A DNA stretch of 37,657 nt from Phycisphaera sp. (GTDB lineage Bacteria > Planctomycetota > Phycisphaerae > Phycisphaerales > Phycisphaeraceae). Numbering within the stretch: position 1 is the stretch's first letter; every line of letters begins with the position of its first letter. The notes below the pieces were generated by a model. It made no database searches. It worked only from the letters and a program-made list of their open reading frames with translations, and was not told where the DNA came from. Of this stretch, positions 2,649 through 36,945 are shown piece by piece. The translations under genes and the position numbers were made by a program. The stretch spans positions 1 through 37,657 of the forward strand of contig WGMF01000030.1 in NCBI GenBank assembly GCA_016125215.1, in the 5' to 3' direction.

Positions 2649-4211
2649 ATGTCCAACAAAAAAACATCCGCGGGCCTCTTTGCAAGCGACGCCGAACTGG
2701 CCCTGGCGCGGTCCATCGTCGCGCTGGCGTTCTGCAATCCGTTTCTCCCCGAACGCAGGCAATATGAAAGGCAGGTGCTGGGCGAGCGTTTCGTCGAGGC
2801 CGGCGAGAGTTGGAGCCTGGACACGCGTAGCCCGGCAACCGAGGCCGCGACCAACGTCACGCTCGTGCGCGAGGTCCTGCACCCGATGGTCCACCGCCTT
2901 GCGGACTCGCTGCGGGACAAGCCGACCATCCCCGATGCGGAGCGCGAACTCTTCGACGACCTGGCGCTCTACCATCTTTACGAGACGGTCTCCGACGATA
3001 TCCAGGCCCTGATCGAAAGCGAACCCTCCACGCGCTCGCGCAAGGCCGGCACGATCTTCCGCAAGGCCAGGGCGGAGGTCGCACGCACCTGGCCCAACGG
3101 TGAAGAGGGGCTTGCCCACCACGGCGGACTCGCGCACGTGCTGGCGTGTTTCTATCAACTCCGCCGGGCGTTCCACCACGTCTTTTCGTTCATCATCGGT
3201 CGCTCGCGGGCCTCCGTCCGTCTGCGCGCGGACATCTGGCAATCGATCTTTTCACACGACCTGCGCCGCTACGTGCGCGTGCTCCACAAAACGATGGGCG
3301 ACATCACCACGCTCGTCGTCGGCCCGTCGGGCACGGGCAAGGAACTTGTCGCGCAGGCGGTCGGGCGGTCACGCTACATCCCCTTCGACGCGGCTTCGGG
3401 GCGGTTCCTCGGCGACATGGAGGGTTCGTTTGCGTTGCTCAATCTCTCGGCCCTCTCGCCCACGCTTATCGAGTCCGAGCTGTTCGGCCACAAGCGCGGC
3501 TCGTTCACCGGGGCTGTCTCGGACCGCGACGGGTATCTGGCCGCCTGCCCGAAGTGGGGGTCGGTTTTTCTTGACGAGGTCGGCGACCTCGAGCCTGCGA
3601 TCCAGGTCAAACTCCTGCGCGTGCTCCAGACGCGCATCTTTCAATCCATCGGCGACAACCGCGACAAGCGCTTCGAGGGCAAAGCCATCGCCGCCACCAA
3701 CCGGGACCTCTCAGTCCTGATCGCACAAGGCCGATTCCGTGCGGACCTCTATTACCGTCTCTGTGCCGACACGATCCGCACACCGAGCCTGACCGAACAG
3801 ATCGGGGGCCACCCCGTCGAACTCGAACGGTTTGTGCGGTTCCTGGCGCGTCGGCTCCTTGGTGACGAGGCCGACACGGTGACGGGCGATGTCATGGCGT
3901 GCATCGAAAAAGACCTGGGCCTGGACTACGCATGGCCGGGCAACGTGCGCGAGCTTGAGCAGTGCGTCCGACAGGTGGTGATCCGCAAGACGTACTCGCC
4001 CATCGAACAACCCTCCGCCGGCGATGAAGTGTCGCGCCTGGCAGAGGACGTGCGGTCGCGTGCGCTGAGCCTTGAGGCATTAAACACACGGTACGTCCGT
4101 CTGGTCCACCGCGACAGCGGGTCTTACCTCGCCGCGGCCAAAAAGCTCGGTGTGGATCGGCGCACGGTCAAAACCCTCGTCGACAAAGGGCGTGAAAGTG
4201 GACTGTATTGA
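2649..4211 (+). CDS. sigma-54-dependent transcriptional activator (AAA+ enhancer-binding protein)
   Basis: A 520-residue protein. Residues 205-400 form a sigma-54 interaction AAA+ domain: Walker A GPSGTGKE (225-232), the sigma-54 contact loop GSFTGA (284-289; usual form GAFTGA), Walker B VFLDE (306-310), sensor I ATNRDL and the arginine finger region RFRADLYYRL (362-371). WPGNVREL follows near the end of the domain. A C-terminal helix-turn-helix is plausible around 495-515 (SYLAAAKKLGVDRRTVKTLV). The first 200 residues are helical and match no receiver, GAF or PAS domain that I recognise, so the input signal is unknown. It would drive ATP-dependent opening of sigma-54 promoters. One such promoter is in this window (25239), but a regulatory link is unproven. 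Confidence 0.88.
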   Translation: MSNKKTSAGLFASDAELALARSIVALAFCNPFLPERRQYERQVLGERFVEAGESWSLDTRSPATEAATNVTLVREVLHPMVHRLADSLRDKPTIPDAERELFDDLALYHLYETVSDDIQALIESEPSTRSRKAGTIFRKARAEVARTWPNGEEGLAHHGGLAHVLACFYQLRRAFHHVFSFIIGRSRASVRLRADIWQSIFSHDLRRYVRVLHKTMGDITTLVVGPSGTGKELVAQAVGRSRYIPFDAASGRFLGDMEGSFALLNLSALSPTLIESELFGHKRGSFTGAVSDRDGYLAACPKWGSVFLDEVGDLEPAIQVKLLRVLQTRIFQSIGDNRDKRFEGKAIAATNRDLSVLIAQGRFRADLYYRLCADTIRTPSLTEQIGGHPVELERFVRFLARRLLGDEADTVTGDVMACIEKDLGLDYAWPGNVRELEQCVRQVVIRKTYSPIEQPSAGDEVSRLAEDVRSRALSLEALNTRYVRLVHRDSGSYLAAAKKLGVDRRTVKTLVDKGRESGLY

Positions 4212-4216
4212 GATTT

Positions 4217-4271
4217 CTTCCGGGGGTTTTGCTTCCGGGGATTTTACTTCCGGGGGTTTTACTTCCGGGGG
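4217..4271. repeat. four tandem copies of a 15-bp unit carrying the CCCCCGGAAG motif
   Basis: Read on the minus strand, the unit CCCCCGGAAGTAAAA recurs with 15-base period (cores at 4217, 4232, 4247 and 4262 on the plus strand); the copy at 4232 has one fewer C in the run. The array begins six bases after the TGA of the sigma-54 activator and runs into the 3' end of the convergent FHA gene, where CCC CGG AAG TAA supplies the last codons and stop. The array has no spacers, so it is not a CRISPR. It may be the product of slippage on a dispersed motif found elsewhere in the window. Confidence 0.9.
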
Positions 4272-4915
4272 TCGTCTTCGTCTTCGTTGAGCATGGGCAG
4301 TTCGAGGGCTTCGTCGTCTTCTGCCAGGAGAGGCAGGTCGTCGTCGTCATCGAGCGAGGGGAGTTTGTCGAGGGCCTGATGCGGGCTGGGGTCTTTTCCG
4401 CCGGCCATCTGTTCGAGGGCGGCGATCGGGTCGTCGAGGTCGACGGTGGGGGTGTAGTGTTCGTCTTCGACGGTCATGGGTTCGTGGTCGTCGAGGTTGT
4501 CGGCGATGGTCTCGGGTTGAGCGGGGGCACCGGACGCGGCGCCGGTTTTGCCGGCCATGGACTCGCGCTTGGCGGCTTCCACGGCACTGGTCTTGGGCGG
4601 GGTGATCTGGGCGGGCTGACCGTCGATGACCACGGTAAACTTGACGGGGCCGACCTGGATCTCGTCGCCGGCGTTCAGGATGGCTTCCTGGATTCGGCTG
4701 CCGTTGAGGAACGTGCCGTTGCTCGAGCCCAGGTCCTTGGCGGTGAGCTGGTGACCCGCGGTGTCGAGACGGATTTCGCAGTGCTGTCGGCTGACGCTCG
4801 AAAGGGGGATGCGCAGGTCGCAGTTATTGGTCCGCCCGAGCAGGGTGCGATCTTTGTTGACCACAAAATCCCGCCTCGAACCGTCCGACTTGAACATGAC
4901 CAGATTGACGTTCAT
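4259..4915 (-). CDS. FHA-domain protein with acidic C-terminal tail
   Basis: I place the start at the internal ATG at 4915 (MNVNLVMF), giving 218 residues; an upstream in-frame Met at 4957 would add 14 residues lacking family similarity. Residues 1-98 form an FHA domain, which binds phosphothreonine peptides: GRTNNCDL near 27-34, SRQHCEI (42-48) and DLGSSNGTFLNG (61-72) are the conserved binding strands and loops. The remainder is low complexity and very acidic, with runs of Asp and Glu. It is probably a cytoplasmic adaptor in Ser/Thr-kinase signalling. The extreme C terminus (DDPRK-stop) is encoded by the tandem CCCCCGGAAG array. Confidence 0.88.
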   Translation of the reverse strand: MNVNLVMFKSDGSRRDFVVNKDRTLLGRTNNCDLRIPLSSVSRQHCEIRLDTAGHQLTAKDLGSSNGTFLNGSRIQEAILNAGDEIQVGPVKFTVVIDGQPAQITPPKTSAVEAAKRESMAGKTGAASGAPAQPETIADNLDDHEPMTVEDEHYTPTVDLDDPIAALEQMAGGKDPSPHQALDKLPSLDDDDDLPLLAEDDEALELPMLNEDEDDPRK

Positions 4916-4947
4916 CACACACTCTGCCCACCAGGCAAAAATCGATC

Positions 4948-6159
4948 TTGAAAACACAGTCTAACCCCCCCATTCCCGCAAGACAAACCGGTCCTCGGTC
5001 GGCTGATCCGCCGTCCGGGCCGGCGGTCCGTGGCCTGTATCTGCACGTGCCGTTTTGTTTTCACAAGTGCCACTACTGCGATTTCTACAGCCTGGTCAAC
5101 GACCCGTCTGAGGACGCGGACAAGCAAAGGGCGTTCATCGACCGCCTGGTCGGTGAACTTGAGCACCAGCACGGGCGCTATGCGCTGGAGATCGAAACCC
5201 TCTTCGTCGGGGGCGGGACGCCGACGCTATTGGAGATTGGGCAGTGGGGGAGGTTGCTGGACGTGTTGCACAGGCTTGGGTTGATCGATCCCCGTGCGCA
5301 GGGAGTTGAGTTCACCGTCGAGGCCAACCCGGAGACGGTGAACGAAGACCTGATGCGCAAGCTTGTCGACGGCGGGGTCAACCGCGTGAGCATCGGGGCG
5401 CAGAGTTTCGACACGGGTTTACTCAAGACGCTCGAGCGCTGGCACGACCCCCGGAATGTCGAGCGCGCGGTGAAGACCTGCCGTGATGCGGGGATCGGGA
5501 ATCTGAACCTCGACCTGATCTTCGCGGTGCCGGGTCAGTCCAAGGCGCAGCTTGTCCACGACCTCGATCGCGCGCTAGCGCTCAAGCCCGAGCATCTGAG
5601 TTGTTACTCGCTCATCTTCGAGCCGAACACCCCGCTGACCCAGAAGCGCAAGATGGGGCTGATCCACAGCGTGGACGAGACGCTCGAACGGGAGATGTAC
5701 GAATATGTCATCGAGCGTTTGACGGGCGAGGGTTACGGGCACTACGAGGTGAGCAACTTCGCGCGGCCGGGTCGGCGTTGTGCCCACAACATGCTCTACT
5801 GGACCAACGCCAACTTCCTTGCGGTCGGGCCATCGGGTGCCAGCCACATCGACGGGCGACGGTGGAAAAACGAAGCGCATCTCGGGCGGTACCTTGCGGG
5901 CGAGGGGCAACCCCCCGTCGTGGATGAAGAACAGCTCGACCCCGCACGCAGCGCGGGTGAACAGCTCATGCTCCGCCTCCGGCTGATCGAGGGTGCGCCG
6001 CTGGCTTGGCTGGATTCACTGCTTCACGCAAAGGACCAACGTCGCAGGCGCATCGACGACCTCGTCGAGATCGGGATGCTCGAGCGCAACGCGACGCACC
6101 TGCGCCTCACCCGTCAAGGCCTGTTCGTGGCCGACGCGGTGATCGCTGAACTGTTGTGA
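4948..6159 (+). CDS. hemW: HemW-like radical SAM protein (heme chaperone)
   Basis: About 403 residues. CFHKCHYC gives Cys37, Cys41 and Cys44 of the radical SAM cluster; the residue pattern continues DF rather than the extra Cys of true HemN oxygen-independent coproporphyrinogen oxidase. GGGTPT, SIGAQSF, LDLIFAVPGQ and the HNxxYW motif (HNMLYW) are HemW hallmarks. HemW transfers heme to target proteins rather than oxidising coproporphyrinogen; older annotations often call it HemN. No ATG exists in frame before the conserved GLYLHVPF, so TTG at 4948 is the likely start. It diverges from the FHA gene with about 30 bases between them. Confidence 0.9.
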   Translation: MKTQSNPPIPARQTGPRSADPPSGPAVRGLYLHVPFCFHKCHYCDFYSLVNDPSEDADKQRAFIDRLVGELEHQHGRYALEIETLFVGGGTPTLLEIGQWGRLLDVLHRLGLIDPRAQGVEFTVEANPETVNEDLMRKLVDGGVNRVSIGAQSFDTGLLKTLERWHDPRNVERAVKTCRDAGIGNLNLDLIFAVPGQSKAQLVHDLDRALALKPEHLSCYSLIFEPNTPLTQKRKMGLIHSVDETLEREMYEYVIERLTGEGYGHYEVSNFARPGRRCAHNMLYWTNANFLAVGPSGASHIDGRRWKNEAHLGRYLAGEGQPPVVDEEQLDPARSAGEQLMLRLRLIEGAPLAWLDSLLHAKDQRRRRIDDLVEIGMLERNATHLRLTRQGLFVADAVIAELL

Positions 6160-15866: not shown

Positions 15867-16311
15867 CGTGGTGTGACCGCGCGGCCGCCCCCGGAAGGTT
15901 CGCCCGAAGGGGGAGGAAAGTCCGAGCACGACAGGACACGGTGGTGGGTAACGCCCACCCCCCCCCGGAAGTTTTCCCCTTCGGCAAAAGACATAGGGGT
16001 CTACTTCCGGGGGGGAGGGATAGCGCCACAGAAAACATACCGCCCCGAGCTTGTCGAGGGGTAAGGGTGAAAAGGTGGTGTAAGAGACCACCGCCTGACT
16101 GGTGACAGTCAGGGCACGGCAAGCCCCACCGCGTGCAAGACCAAACAGCCCCCCCGCCCCCGGAAGTTCGCTTTCGGGGGCACACCTCGTCCGGGTGTCT
16201 GGGGGGCGGGTAGGTCGCTCGAGCCCTCTGGCAACAGGGGGCCTAGAGAAATGGTCGCCCCCGGAAGTCAAACACCGGGCAACAGAACTCGGCTTACAGG
16301 TCACACCCGCC
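15867..16311 (+). ncRNA. rnpB: RNase P RNA, bacterial type A
   Basis: The catalytic RNA of RNase P, which trims the 5' leader of tRNA precursors. GGTGTGACC near the 5' end pairs with GGTCACACC at 16299-16307 (helix P1). Conserved blocks are GAGGAAAGTCC (from 15913), TAAGGGTGAAAAG (from about 16062), GTGCAAGACCAAACAG (from about 16131), the GGTCGCTCGAGCCC segment and ACAGAACTCGGCTTAC (from about 16282). At about 445 bases it is longer than the E. coli RNA. The extra length is a 5'-side helix and a ~50-base hairpin after GGTAACGCC whose arms are CCCCCGGAAGT (15962-15972) and ACTTCCGGGGG (16003-16013). Five copies of the CCCCCGGAAG motif fall inside this RNA. Confidence 0.95.
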
Positions 16312-16320
16312 GAAAGATAA

Positions 16321-22147: not shown

Positions 22148-23326
22148 ATGCCTATCCGCTTCTACTGCCGTGGTTGCCAGGCCCGCATCAAGGTCCCCGA
22201 CGCCGCGGGGGGCAAGAAGGTCAAGTGCCCAAGCTGCGGCCTGATCCAGCAGGCCCCCGGCGGCGCACCCTCAACCCCCGAAACCGCAGCCACAACCAAA
22301 CCCGCATCACCACCCGAACCCCAATCCCCCTCACCCGTCGACGAAGACCCCCTCGCCGCACTCGCGGCCCTCGCCGCCGGCGACGACCCAACCCCTCCCC
22401 CTCCCCCGGAAGTCAAGTCTAAGCCTGTGGCAGACAAGCCCGCGACCCCGGAAGTCAAACCCCCGGAAATCAAACCCCCGGAAGCCAATCTCCCGGCAGA
22501 CAAGCCCGCGCCTGCGCCAGTCAAACCCGCGCCCATACAAGTCAGACCGCCCGAGGACCGTGACGATGATGACGACGATGATGATCCGACTGACGCCCTC
22601 GCGGCGCTGGCCGGTGCCGCGCCCTCGGATGAGAGCGGATCGCCCATCAACACGGACAACGCCGGTCCCGCACACACGCAAGAGCAGCCCGCGTTTAATT
22701 TCGATCAGGACGAAATCGATGAACCCGACGACACGGATGACCTCGCACCCCCGCCAGCAGAAAGTTCTGAGCAGCCCGAAGACGAACCGGTCATCAACCC
22801 CGTGACCGCCGCGGCCGTGGCCGCCAGCGTGGGCGTCGGTGCCAAGGTCGCTGCGCTGCCCAAGCCGCAGCTTCCCGGTCGGGATGCGAGTGACCACGAC
22901 GCAGGCGGCACACCCTCCTCGCCCTCCGCTTCGCGTCCCTCCGCATCACGTCCCTCCGCCTCGCGCCCCGGCGGGCCCAGGGCCATCCCGCTCTCGACCC
23001 ATCCCAGCACCCACCGCCCCAGCGCTCAGATCAACGTGCCCCCCGTCGGGTCGCAAGCCCCGACAAGAACCAAGCCCGTCGTGCCCGGCGGCAACAAATC
23101 GCTCGGCTATCTGTCGCTCCTTTCGTGGGTGATGTTGATCGTGGCCGGCCTTTTCCTCGCGGGCGGCGTGCGCATGATGCTGGCCCAGCGCGAGGCTCAC
23201 GCGCGACTGATCGACCAGGTCCTGGCCGTCTCGATGGGCATCCTCGCCGCCATCGTCGCCCTGGGCCTCTCCGAAGCCCTGCGCGTCCTCAAACGCATCG
23301 GCCAAAACGCTCACCGCCACGATTAA
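22148..23326 (+). CDS. zinc-ribbon protein with long low-complexity linker and membrane helices
   Basis: A 392-residue protein. CRGC (Cys7, Cys10) and CPSC (Cys27, Cys30) make an N-terminal zinc ribbon of the type found in planctomycete membrane proteins. Residues 40-310 are disordered, with Pro/Glu/Val/Lys-rich (PEVKPPEIKPPEA), acidic (DRDDDDDDDD) and Ser/Arg/Pro repeats. Two membrane helices end the protein near 318-340 and 354-376. It sits after the GH10-like and ComEA-like genes on the same strand. The function is unknown; a membrane-anchored binding protein is likely. Part of the linker is encoded by tandem CCCCCGGAAG motifs. Confidence 0.82.
   Translation: MPIRFYCRGCQARIKVPDAAGGKKVKCPSCGLIQQAPGGAPSTPETAATTKPASPPEPQSPSPVDEDPLAALAALAAGDDPTPPPPPEVKSKPVADKPATPEVKPPEIKPPEANLPADKPAPAPVKPAPIQVRPPEDRDDDDDDDDPTDALAALAGAAPSDESGSPINTDNAGPAHTQEQPAFNFDQDEIDEPDDTDDLAPPPAESSEQPEDEPVINPVTAAAVAASVGVGAKVAALPKPQLPGRDASDHDAGGTPSSPSASRPSASRPSASRPGGPRAIPLSTHPSTHRPSAQINVPPVGSQAPTRTKPVVPGGNKSLGYLSLLSWVMLIVAGLFLAGGVRMMLAQREAHARLIDQVLAVSMGILAAIVALGLSEALRVLKRIGQNAHRHD
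22403..22484 (+). repeat. in-frame cluster of CCCCCGGAAG motifs
   Basis: Cores lie at 22403, 22446 (one C shorter), 22460 (final base A) and 22475. They are read in one frame as Pro-Pro-Glu or Pro-Glu with flanking Val-Lys or Ile-Lys, giving the PEVK-like linker of the zinc-ribbon protein. The last three units are 14-15 bases apart, close to the 15-base period of the array at 4217. Confidence 0.85.
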
Positions 23327-23557: not shown

Positions 23558-25033
23558 ATGGCTGACTCGCCCGTGACCGTCGTCTGGTTCCGGCAGGACC
23601 TGCGTCTTGCGGACAACCCCGCGATCCTTGCCGCCATCGAGCGCGGGCAGCGCACGGTGATGCTCTACATCCACAGCACGGACGAAGAGGGGCAATGGCC
23701 GCCCGGCGGCGCGATGAAGTGGTGGCTGCACCAGAACCTCGACGCGCTCGACAGGTCACTCAAAAAACTCGGGCAGAGACTGGTCTACCGCAAGGGGCCG
23801 GCGCTCGAGGTGCTGCGTGAATTACTCAACGGCACGGGTTCGGGGTCGGCGGTCTACTGGAATCGGCGGTACGAGCCGACCGTGATCGAACGTGACAAGA
23901 AGGTTAAGGCGGCGCTCTCACGCGACGGTTACCACGTCGAGAGTTTCAACAGCGCGTTGCTCTACGAGCCGTGGGAGGTCAAGACCGGCACCGGCACGCC
24001 CTACAAGGTCTTTACCCCGTTCTGGCGCACCTGCGTCGCCTTGCCCGAACCCCCGGAAGCTTTCCCCGCTCCCAAATCGCTCCCCCCGCAGGTCAAGGGC
24101 ATCGAGTCGCTCACGCTCGATGACCTGCACTTCAAACCCACGCTCGGCTGGGCGGCCACGATGGAAAAGGTCTGGACCCCCGGCGAGGGTGGGGCGGCGG
24201 CAAGGCTCGAACGCTTCCTCGAATCCCACGCCGACCGCTACGCCACCGACCGCGACCTGGCAGGCAAGGGGTTGCATGCTAACAATCTGTTAGGCGCCTC
24301 CACGAGCAACATGTCAGCGTACCTCCACGTCGGCGCGATCGGCCCGCGTCAGGTCTGGCTCACCACACGCCGGATCACCCAGCAAGCGTATTCGCGCATG
24401 ACCAAGGGGCCGCAGGGCTTTCTGCGCGAGCTGGGCTGGCGCGAGTTTGCCTACCACGTGCTCTACCACTTCCCGCACACACCCACGCGGCCGTTGCGCG
24501 ATGACATGGCGGCCTTCCCCTGGCGCGACGACGACAAGGCGCTTCGCCTCTGGCAGCGCGGCAAGACCGGCTACCCCTTCGTCGACGCGGGCATGAGGCA
24601 GCTCTGGGCCACCGGCGTCATGCACAACCGTGTCCGCATGGTCGTCGCGTCGTTCCTCGTCAAACACCTGCTCATCCACTGGCGACACGGCGCAGAGTGG
24701 TTCTGGGACACGCTCGTCGACGCGGACCTGGCCAGCAACACGCTCGGCTGGCAGTGGACGGCCGGCTGCGGCGCGGACGCCGCCCCGTACTTTCGCATCT
24801 TTAACCCGATCACGCAGGGCACCAAGTTCGACGCGGAGGGTACCTATGTCCGGCGGTGGGTCCCCGAGCTGGCCAGGCTCCCCGAGGAGTGGATTCACCG
24901 CCCGTGGGAGGCCCCTAATCATGTGTTAGATCAAGCCGGCGTCGTGCTGGGCAAGACCTACCCTAAGCCCATCGTGGACCACCCCGACGCCCGTGACCGC
25001 GCCCTCGAAGCCCTGGCACAGAGCAAGCGCTGA
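23558..25033 (+). CDS. phrB: deoxyribodipyrimidine photolyase (class I)
   Basis: A 491-residue cryptochrome/photolyase that uses blue light and reduced FAD to split cyclobutane pyrimidine dimers. VWFRQDLRLADNPAI is the N-terminal antenna domain start. In the FAD domain, GWREFAYHVLYHFP, TGYPFVDAGMRQLWATGVMHNRVRMVVASFLVKHLLIHW and the tail DADLASNTLGWQWTAGCGADAAPYFRIFNP are the flavin and DNA-lesion binding blocks of class I enzymes. Length is normal. It stands alone on this strand after repeat copy D; no UV-regulatory box was seen. One CCCCCGGAAG motif (24050) falls in its inter-domain linker. Confidence 0.96.
   Translation: MADSPVTVVWFRQDLRLADNPAILAAIERGQRTVMLYIHSTDEEGQWPPGGAMKWWLHQNLDALDRSLKKLGQRLVYRKGPALEVLRELLNGTGSGSAVYWNRRYEPTVIERDKKVKAALSRDGYHVESFNSALLYEPWEVKTGTGTPYKVFTPFWRTCVALPEPPEAFPAPKSLPPQVKGIESLTLDDLHFKPTLGWAATMEKVWTPGEGGAAARLERFLESHADRYATDRDLAGKGLHANNLLGASTSNMSAYLHVGAIGPRQVWLTTRRITQQAYSRMTKGPQGFLRELGWREFAYHVLYHFPHTPTRPLRDDMAAFPWRDDDKALRLWQRGKTGYPFVDAGMRQLWATGVMHNRVRMVVASFLVKHLLIHWRHGAEWFWDTLVDADLASNTLGWQWTAGCGADAAPYFRIFNPITQGTKFDAEGTYVRRWVPELARLPEEWIHRPWEAPNHVLDQAGVVLGKTYPKPIVDHPDARDRALEALAQSKR
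24050..24059 (+). repeat. CCCCCGGAAG motif inside phrB
   Basis: Encodes Pro-Pro-Glu-Ala in the linker between the antenna and FAD domains (PEPPEAFPAPKSLPP), a region that varies in length in the family and tolerates insertions. Confidence 0.85.
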
Positions 25034-31138: not shown

Positions 31139-31269
31139 ATGTGAGAAGCTGGACTGTAATAGCAACGGAGTGTATTGGGGTGCCACTGGCGGCTTGTCCG
31201 CCAGTGAAAAAGCCCTACGTAGACAGCAGTGGCGGACAAGCCGCCAGTGGCACCCCTAAGCTTCTCACA
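31139..31269. repeat. cruciform-forming TGCCACTGGCGG element
   Basis: Arms at 31177-31206 and 31227-31256 are complementary over about 30 bases with one mismatch around a 20-base centre. Each arm is itself a palindrome (CACTGGCGG-CTTGT-CCGCCAGTG). Outer arms GTGAGAAGCT (31141) and AGCTTCTCAC (31259) also pair. The TGCCACTGGCGGCTTGTCCGCC form resembles an intergenic repeat that I recall from planctomycete genomes, which I could not verify here. Confidence 0.92.
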
Positions 31270-33170: not shown

Positions 33171-33628
33171 TTCCCACCCCGGACCGGGTGTGAGTCTCCG
33201 CAAGGGGACAAGCGAACGGTTCGGAGTGGGGGAACAAGCATCGCAAAAAGCGATCACGGGTCGGATGAACACACGCGGCCACGGGCCGGTCTTCGACACG
33301 ACGGTTCTTTGACAAGTGGATAGGCCAAGCGGTTGCATGACGCACGTCGTGTAGGTCTTACACGGCTGTTAGAAGTGTTGTCATGCAATCATCGAGAATG
33401 AGCTCTGAGGAGCTTCTTTTCCCCCGAAACCATCAAACGGGACACCCCGTGACACTATCCCCGTCACGGCCCCCGCGACCGGGTTTCGGGACATGGAAAA
33501 GTGCTGTGTCTCAATCGTGACACAGCGGGTTATGCCGACCCAACACCCCCCCCGGAAGTGGACAAAGGAAACGCGGGTTTTTCACCGTGCTCCGGAGTCT
33601 GCGAAAAGGGATCGGTGCCAGGTCGGTG
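33171..33628 (+). other. rRNA leader with boxA, hairpins and processing stem
   Basis: GGTTCTTTGACAA near 33303-33315 matches the boxA antitermination site of rRNA operons. TTGCATGAC (33333-33341) pairs with GTCATGCAA (33380-33388), and GCTGTGTC (33503-33510) with GACACAGC (33519-33526). GGTCGGTGTGATCAAG at 33621-33636 pairs with CTTGATCATACCGACC at 36479-36494 with one wobble, forming the stem that brackets 23S rRNA for RNase III. One CCCCCGGAAG motif lies at 33549. Confidence 0.85.
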
Positions 33629-36486
<2,858 letters not shown>

Positions 36487-36834
36487 TACCGACCCCGCAC
36501 CGATACCCAAAACATATCGAATCACACGTTACTTAACGATAGAATATCAACTTTCTTATCTATAGAATCATGTGCTTCTTATCCAAGGGTTTCGTGCAGG
36601 GCATAACCAAGCCCCTCACTCATTCTCGATTGATAACAACACAACTATGCAAAGCCCACGGCGACCAGCCGTGGGATCACCATCCCCAATGCGGGATCAC
36701 CCCCCTCAATGCGGGATCACCATCCCCATGGCGGGATAAGCTCCCCCAAACGGGGGCGCCCCAACGACTCCTGCAACCCTTGGCCCATCCTGACACAACA
36801 GGCCCGCACCGCTTAATCGCGTTGCGTCAGGCCT
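36487..36834 (+). other. 23S-5S spacer with GGGATCACC repeats and hairpins
   Basis: No gene in about 350 bases. CCCACGGC-GACCA-GCCGTGGG (from about 36656) is a hairpin, directly followed by three GGGATCACC units with CATCCCC or CCCCCTC tails and a fourth degenerate GCGGGATAAG unit up to about 36760. CCCCC-AAAC-GGGGG-type pairing occurs near 36745. No tRNA is present. Confidence 0.8.
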
Positions 36835-36945
36835 TTGTCGGTGACCATAGCGACGGGGAAACACCTGATCCCATCCCGAACTCAGCAGTTAAGCCCGTCG
36901 CGCCGATGATACTGCAACCGCGGGAAAGTAGGTCATCGCCGACTT
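36835..36945 (+). rRNA. rrf: 5S ribosomal RNA
   Basis: About 110 bases beginning GTCGGTGACCATAGCGAC and ending GTAGGTCATCGCCGAC; the ends pair as helix I. CCCGAACTCAGCAGTTAAGCC and the CGCCGATGATACTG loop E region are diagnostic for 5S. It follows 23S on the same transcript, with a terminator just behind. Confidence 0.96.

Follow-up and report, generated by a model that had tools for sequence, protein, structure and literature searches.

Copies of a genomically abundant decamer in outer helices of RNase P RNA in Phycisphaeraceae

The RNase P RNA gene of a Phycisphaera sp. genome (G000, the genome holding the window) raises the question of how a short dispersed word came to lie several times in one housekeeping ribozyme, and whether the helices that contain it are additions to that RNA. 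The window was the whole stretch analyzed, 37,657 nucleotides, and the word is the decamer CCCCCGGAAG. The gene was identified by Rfam search as a complete class A rnpB (257.6 bits against a gathering score of 100 bits, full-length), and it was the only RNase P RNA match in the entire genome. In the alignment to the bacterial class A covariance model, the conserved core aligned and the motif helices lay outside it, in agreement with the original prediction of an intact catalytic core. Judged by sequence, G000 has an ordinary RNase P RNA of class A.

Five copies of the word had been reported in this RNA, and all five were exact and in place (Table 1); a sixth site (16171, reverse strand) has one mismatch. 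The genomic word density of G000 predicts 0.09 copies in the RNase P RNA. When the RNA and 30 nt on each side were shuffled with dinucleotide frequencies kept, the mean was 0.0085 copies and the maximum 1, and five or more copies were reached in 0 of 2000. Helices were placed using the Rfam alignment and folds of single elements; the names P16 and P17 follow that alignment and the standard nomenclature, and ‘P19-like’ is a presumptive name. The copy at 15962 and the inverted copy at 16004 had been described as facing each other in an extra hairpin near P9. They do face each other, in a single predicted stem, and this hairpin is P9 itself, enlarged. A hairpin between the copy at 16157 and CGGGGGC was likewise recovered, with a UUCG loop, and CGGGGGC starts one position later than had been given (16175-16181, not 16174).

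Table 1. Positions of the RNase P RNA gene, its motif helices (as folded) and other features in the window
Feature	Position	Strand	Remarks
Class A RNase P RNA gene (rnpB), complete, single copy	15869..16312	+	Rfam RF00010, model positions 1-367
P3 hairpin	15888..15913	+	motif 15888-15897 (+) is the 5' strand, pairing in the fold through CCCCC and the final G
Enlarged P9	15960..16015	+	13-bp stem of motif 15962-15971 (+) with inverted motif 16004-16013 (-), paired over their full length (fold)
P16-P17 stretch	16148..16207	+	P16 outer stem 16148-16154/16201-16207; P17 16182-16198 (fold)
Hairpin between P16 and P17	16156..16181	+	GCCCCCGGAAG-UUCG-CUUUCGGGGGC, 11 bp; contains motif 16157-16166 (+) (fold)
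P19-like hairpin, between 3' strands of P2 and P4	16260..16279	+	motif 16258-16267 (+) gives the 5' arm (fold)
ORF ending in motif array	4211..4957	-	array provides its stop codon (DDPRK, then stop); presumably FHA-like
Motif array, 15-nt period, 3' end of ORF	4214..4271	-	three exact copies and one near copy
Motif copies, partly 15-nt tandem	22403..22484	+	encode PPEVK-like linker; exact at 22403 and 22475
Single motif copy within ORF	24050..24059	+	ORF product presumably a photolyase
Single motif copy upstream of 23S rRNA gene	33549..33558	+	
23S and 5S rRNA genes	33630..36944		
20-nt tandem units (GGGATCACC...)	36673..36749		between 23S and 5S genes
Repeat family (AATCTGCG type), ~50-113 nt	12745, 19126, 19941, 23352		direct and inverted
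Near-perfect inverted repeat	31177..31256		30-nt arms (97%), 20-nt loop

No 16S rRNA match was obtained in the window at the Rfam gathering score, so a 16S gene does not lie close upstream of the 23S gene.

The motif helices had been regarded as extra. Hairpins were counted on minimum-energy folds, run without shuffle control, in the 38 family RNAs in which all anchors were found (G001, G004, G015, G020 and G028 were left out). In all 38 RNAs the P9, P12 and P19-like stretches each formed one hairpin or more, and the P16-P17 stretch held two or more loops in 32, a count that is rough in G003, G007, G009 and G037 because the anchor matched upstream and the stretch begins early there. The helices thus occupy ordinary positions of the family RNA, and additions throughout were rejected on position and length, P9 excepted, which alone is enlarged in G000. 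Its P9 stretch was 66 nt against a median of 34 nt, third after G030 (107 nt) and G044 (104 nt); these three longest stretches are the three with an inverted word pair, and the gain was about 32 nt in G000 and about 70 nt in G030 and G044. In G017 the P9 stretch is long as well (61 nt), without the word. Relatives with the same helices and no motif would have spoken against a role of the word, and this was borne out in part: G027 (6 copies per Mb) has a hairpin laid out like the one between P16 and P17, built from different base pairs and lacking the word. The growth of P9 in G000 is extra sequence. On these predicted folds, the word appears mostly to occupy standing helices and in P9 to have arrived with extra sequence; the longer P9 indicates that insertion or duplication also happens.

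That the helices are built from a dispersed motif was confirmed across the genome. CCCCCGGAAG occurs 727 times in the 4.04-Mb G000 genome (366 forward, 361 reverse), against 13 occurrences (4 and 9) of the reversed control, and it was the commonest 10-mer in 400 kb sampled outside the window. A sample of 437,657 bases (20 stretches and the window) held 90 copies. At any of the 12 positions on either side the top base was common to at most 48 of these, and no longer shared element around the word was found in this sample. By a rough codon-usage method of calling ORFs, 65 of the 90 copies lay in ORFs, fewer than the 88% of the sample called coding (P = 8e-5); all six frames were used, and 42 of the 65 ran in the sense direction (P = 0.025). 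Close pairs were counted in direct and in inward-facing inverted orientation; G000 has 57 and 5, respectively, P9 of RNase P being one of the 5. Direct/inverted counts elsewhere were 379/1 in G015, 185/2 in G016 and 33/24 in G006. Copies cluster in some housekeeping genes (L078:5060-6101 and L083:12010-12322), with three in DNA polymerase I and four in an aminotransferase-like gene. The latter we take to be an LL-diaminopimelate aminotransferase.

RNase P RNA was then compared in 71 genomes, 43 of the family Phycisphaeraceae and 28 of other families; fragmentary matches in G024, G035 and G040 were left out of the counts. Word density in the family ranged from 0.9 to 328 per Mb, and the genus of G000 was represented by G000 only. 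The word was found inside the RNase P match in 8 of the 43 family genomes (18 copies) and in 0 of the 28 others; with 30-nt flanks, there were 23 copies in 9 of the 43, where the word densities of the individual genomes lead one to expect 1.1 over all 71. Copies lay in P3, P9, P16/17 and the P19-like helix of G000, P3 and P16/17 of G006, P12 and P16/17 of G028 (gene cut by the contig end), P9 of G030 and G044, P12 of G046 (two close units) and G011 (genome density 2 per Mb), and P16/17 of G049. In the folds, an exact inverted copy forms the other, fully paired arm in P9 of G000, G030 and G044 and in P12 of G028; G014 carries the near-word CCCCCGGAAT with its inverse in P12. The ninth carrier, G016, has four inverted copies upstream of the match or at its first bases, and a further three that lie at its last bases or past them. 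These arrays could pair and extend P1 according to fold prediction, and they were counted apart because they sit at or beyond the gene ends and belong only putatively to the mature RNA. A copy inside P1 of G016 was considered and dropped on the same positions. The 9-mer CCCCGGAAG occurred, within the stretch read, in 6 of 92 Phycisphaerae RNase P loci; at least four of the 6 are, by sequence, from the same genomes as the carriers.

GC-rich RNase P helices could happen to use CCCCCGG, the overlap with the word being one of chance or composition. The 5' strand of P16 is C-rich in many relatives, and the single copies in G049 and L193 look so; since P16 begins with CCCC there, convergence could account for the P16 copies of G006, G049 and L193. 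As a general account this is improbable: for seven of the nine carriers no shuffle out of 2000 matched the observed count (7 did for G011 and 4 for G049), the reversed 9-mer gave one match over the 71 RNAs, and inverted copies in P9 and P12 are exact and full-length. Convergence is disfavoured for G000, G028, G030 and G044.

A link between the word in RNase P and its abundance elsewhere in the genome, implied in the original prediction, found support, in that the relatives carrying it there tend to have a high word density. Ignoring kinship throughout, the median density was 51 per Mb in carriers against 14 in the others for copies inside the match (P = 0.03) and 57 against 14 with 30-nt flanks (P = 0.008), and the four genomes with an exact inverted pair were all among the 13 of 43 at 44 per Mb or above (P = 0.006). 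Above 100 per Mb, 3 of 5 genomes carry the word inside the RNA against 5 of 38 others (P = 0.04, kinship ignored), the test being weaker than with G016 counted (4 of 5, P = 0.005, kinship ignored). Two genomes count against capture by abundance: G015, the densest (328 per Mb), lacks the word in RNase P, and G011, at its low density, has one copy. A DNA polymerase I tree of 46 genomes (40 scored, with G016 taken as a carrier; G028 and G049 absent) also counts against it, as presence or absence can be explained there with four changes; the helices differ within this count, which suggests more events. On the same tree, polymerase I of G008 falls apart from the four other members of its genus, which may reflect transfer, a paralogue or binning.

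That structured RNAs attract the word generally was rejected. The word was found inside 0 of 30 tmRNA loci (of 43 genomes over the cut-off) and 0 of 30 SRP RNAs (of 45); the separation from RNase P is weak (8 of 43 against 0 of 30, P = 0.02), as only about 0.6 copies would be expected in 30 tmRNAs. The same counts bear on the idea of a selected function of the word in RNase P, such as the binding of a word-recognizing protein to the RNA or the gene. Several copies in outer helices of one RNA, and none in the 30 tmRNAs and 30 SRP RNAs, would be in keeping with this; its positions vary between genera, 35 of 43 family members lack the word, and the low tmRNA expectation makes the tmRNA zero weak. 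Such a function is very unlikely.

The origin of the word was traced at sites in two protein genes. At the MreB site, 30 loci (of 51 genomes with matches) were aligned without an indel; 29 of them encode GKTPGSI and that of G016 encodes GRTPGSI, and synonymous codon choice gives rise to the word in G000, G006 and G014. These are 3 of the 4 genomes at 60 per Mb or above, against 0 of 26 below (P = 0.001, with a cut-off picked after inspection of the data). In DNA polymerase I, the word lies at three G000 sites, where 29 relatives (of 48 others matched) show no gap or indel within 4-8 residues and differ from G000 by 1 to 8 bases. G006 and G022 have the exact word at the third of these sites, shifted one base further on, in another frame and encoding DPRK instead of TPGS. 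No correlation was found between word density and likeness to the word at the three polymerase I sites in the other genomes (rho = 0.03, -0.02 and -0.18). These alignments show that the word at one MreB and three polymerase I sites was gained by substitution in place, which is what an uptake-type word would lead one to expect. Without indels at these sites, the assumption that it is simply a mobile insert is unsupported for the protein genes.

For the RNA, the corresponding proposal is repeated insertion into RNase P helices of a small word-bearing mobile element (REP-, MITE- or Rickettsia-palindrome-like). The longer P9 stretches of G000, G030 and G044, with their inverted motif arms, are what such an element would leave. 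Near contig ends of G006 there are eight copies of a longer repeat (L345-L352), each with two inverted copies of CCCCCGGAAG separated by 11-12 bases; this single repeat accounts for 8 of the 24 close inverted pairs of that genome. A different dispersed repeat, GTGATGAGTG (41 copies in G009, control 1), forms an inverted pair inside P12 of the G009 RNase P RNA (G009:C1:3174188-3174257; locus L022), an indication of tolerance in the outer helices no less than of anything special about the decamer. Set against the proposal are the flanking bases in G000, its predominance of close direct over inward-facing inverted pairs, and the MreB and polymerase I sites without indels. A longer conserved element with terminal inverted repeats, as in RPE, REP and MITE sequences, was not found in G000 by flanks or pair orientation. 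Target duplications and empty sites were sought: MreB and polymerase I showed substitution, and the RNase P relatives were too distant for an exact empty-site reading. Repeated insertion of such an element is rather unlikely. Long, repeat-like P12 hairpins (TCTGAT-, GTCAG- and GGGGCC-type units) were also seen in G006, G019, G022, G023, G037, G038, G049, G059 and G081, and P12 appears to be a landing site for repeats of more than one kind.

The reading that we hold to be probable, with some reserve, is that outer helices (P3, P9, the P16-P17 hairpin and the P19-like hairpin) were captured by CCCCCGGAAG, a word multiplying genome-wide. The word would be under a genome-wide drive and would spread through substitution and local duplication, and the tolerant outer helices of RNase P, which need only pairing, would take it up. 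Because an outer helix needs only to stay paired, RNase P would accept the word at any place that already has a complementary strand or soon gains one, whether through strand-switch copying or through compensatory change. As driving force, biased uptake of word-bearing DNA, or biased repair or conversion towards the word, fits best as a candidate.

Precedents exist for parts of this arrangement. STRR sequences are reported in RNase P RNA of heterocyst-forming cyanobacteria (Vioque 1997, NAR 25:3471). CCCCCGGAAG is likewise a short repeat, abundant in its genome and present inside the RNase P RNA. Here the phylum is another, substitution in protein genes is a further source of the word, and inverted copies serve as its pairing partners in P9 and P12. 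The cyanobacterial unit presumably differs from CCCCCGGAAG. As for tandem units within the RNA, looked for as an STRR trait, G000 has single units, G046 two close units in P12 and G016 arrays at and beyond the gene ends; direct tandem arrays lie elsewhere in G000. Rickettsia palindromic elements are reported in tmRNA and M1 RNA (Ogata 2002, as described in PMC2229807) and are likewise dispersed repeats in RNase P RNA and protein genes. They measure 105-146 bp (PMC2229807); the unit here is a 10-nt word, around which the G000 sample showed no longer shared element. Planctomycete RNase P RNA was treated by Butler and Fuerst (2004), who may already have noticed such helices. No earlier report of CCCCCGGAAG was found in the literature searched, mostly outside subscription journals, nor of CCCCGGAAG among the matches listed. 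The present case departs from the precedents in phylum, unit, origin by substitution in genes and helix pairing via inverted copies.

Uptake sequences of Pasteurellaceae and Neisseriae (PMC2346458) share with the word hundreds of short copies and one orientation favoured in reading frames. CCCCCGGAAG also shows the strong over-representation on both strands and the spread without indels within genes that mark DNA uptake sequences, the latter at four sites in two genes only. It differs in that direct tandem arrays are frequent here, and a role in uptake would be a candidate one. A ComEC-type domain (PF03772), as expected for competence, was found in G000 and in 44 of 51 genomes and is non-discriminating. 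Literature on uptake words in planctomycetes was not found in a search that covered few subscription journals.

A short genome-wide word lies in an essential RNA enzyme of several genera, in helices that vary among them, and this poses a testable question: how far neutral or selfish sequence drive can reshape a ribozyme while its pairing is kept. CCCCCGGAAG would be a candidate uptake-type signal in Planctomycetota. A bolder form, which we put forward as speculative, is that this DNA uptake signal, or a similar sequence drive, has rewritten the outer architecture of the ribozyme independently in several genera, with the inverted copy giving the pairing strand. If true, a DNA-level drive would design RNA helices of a universal ribozyme.
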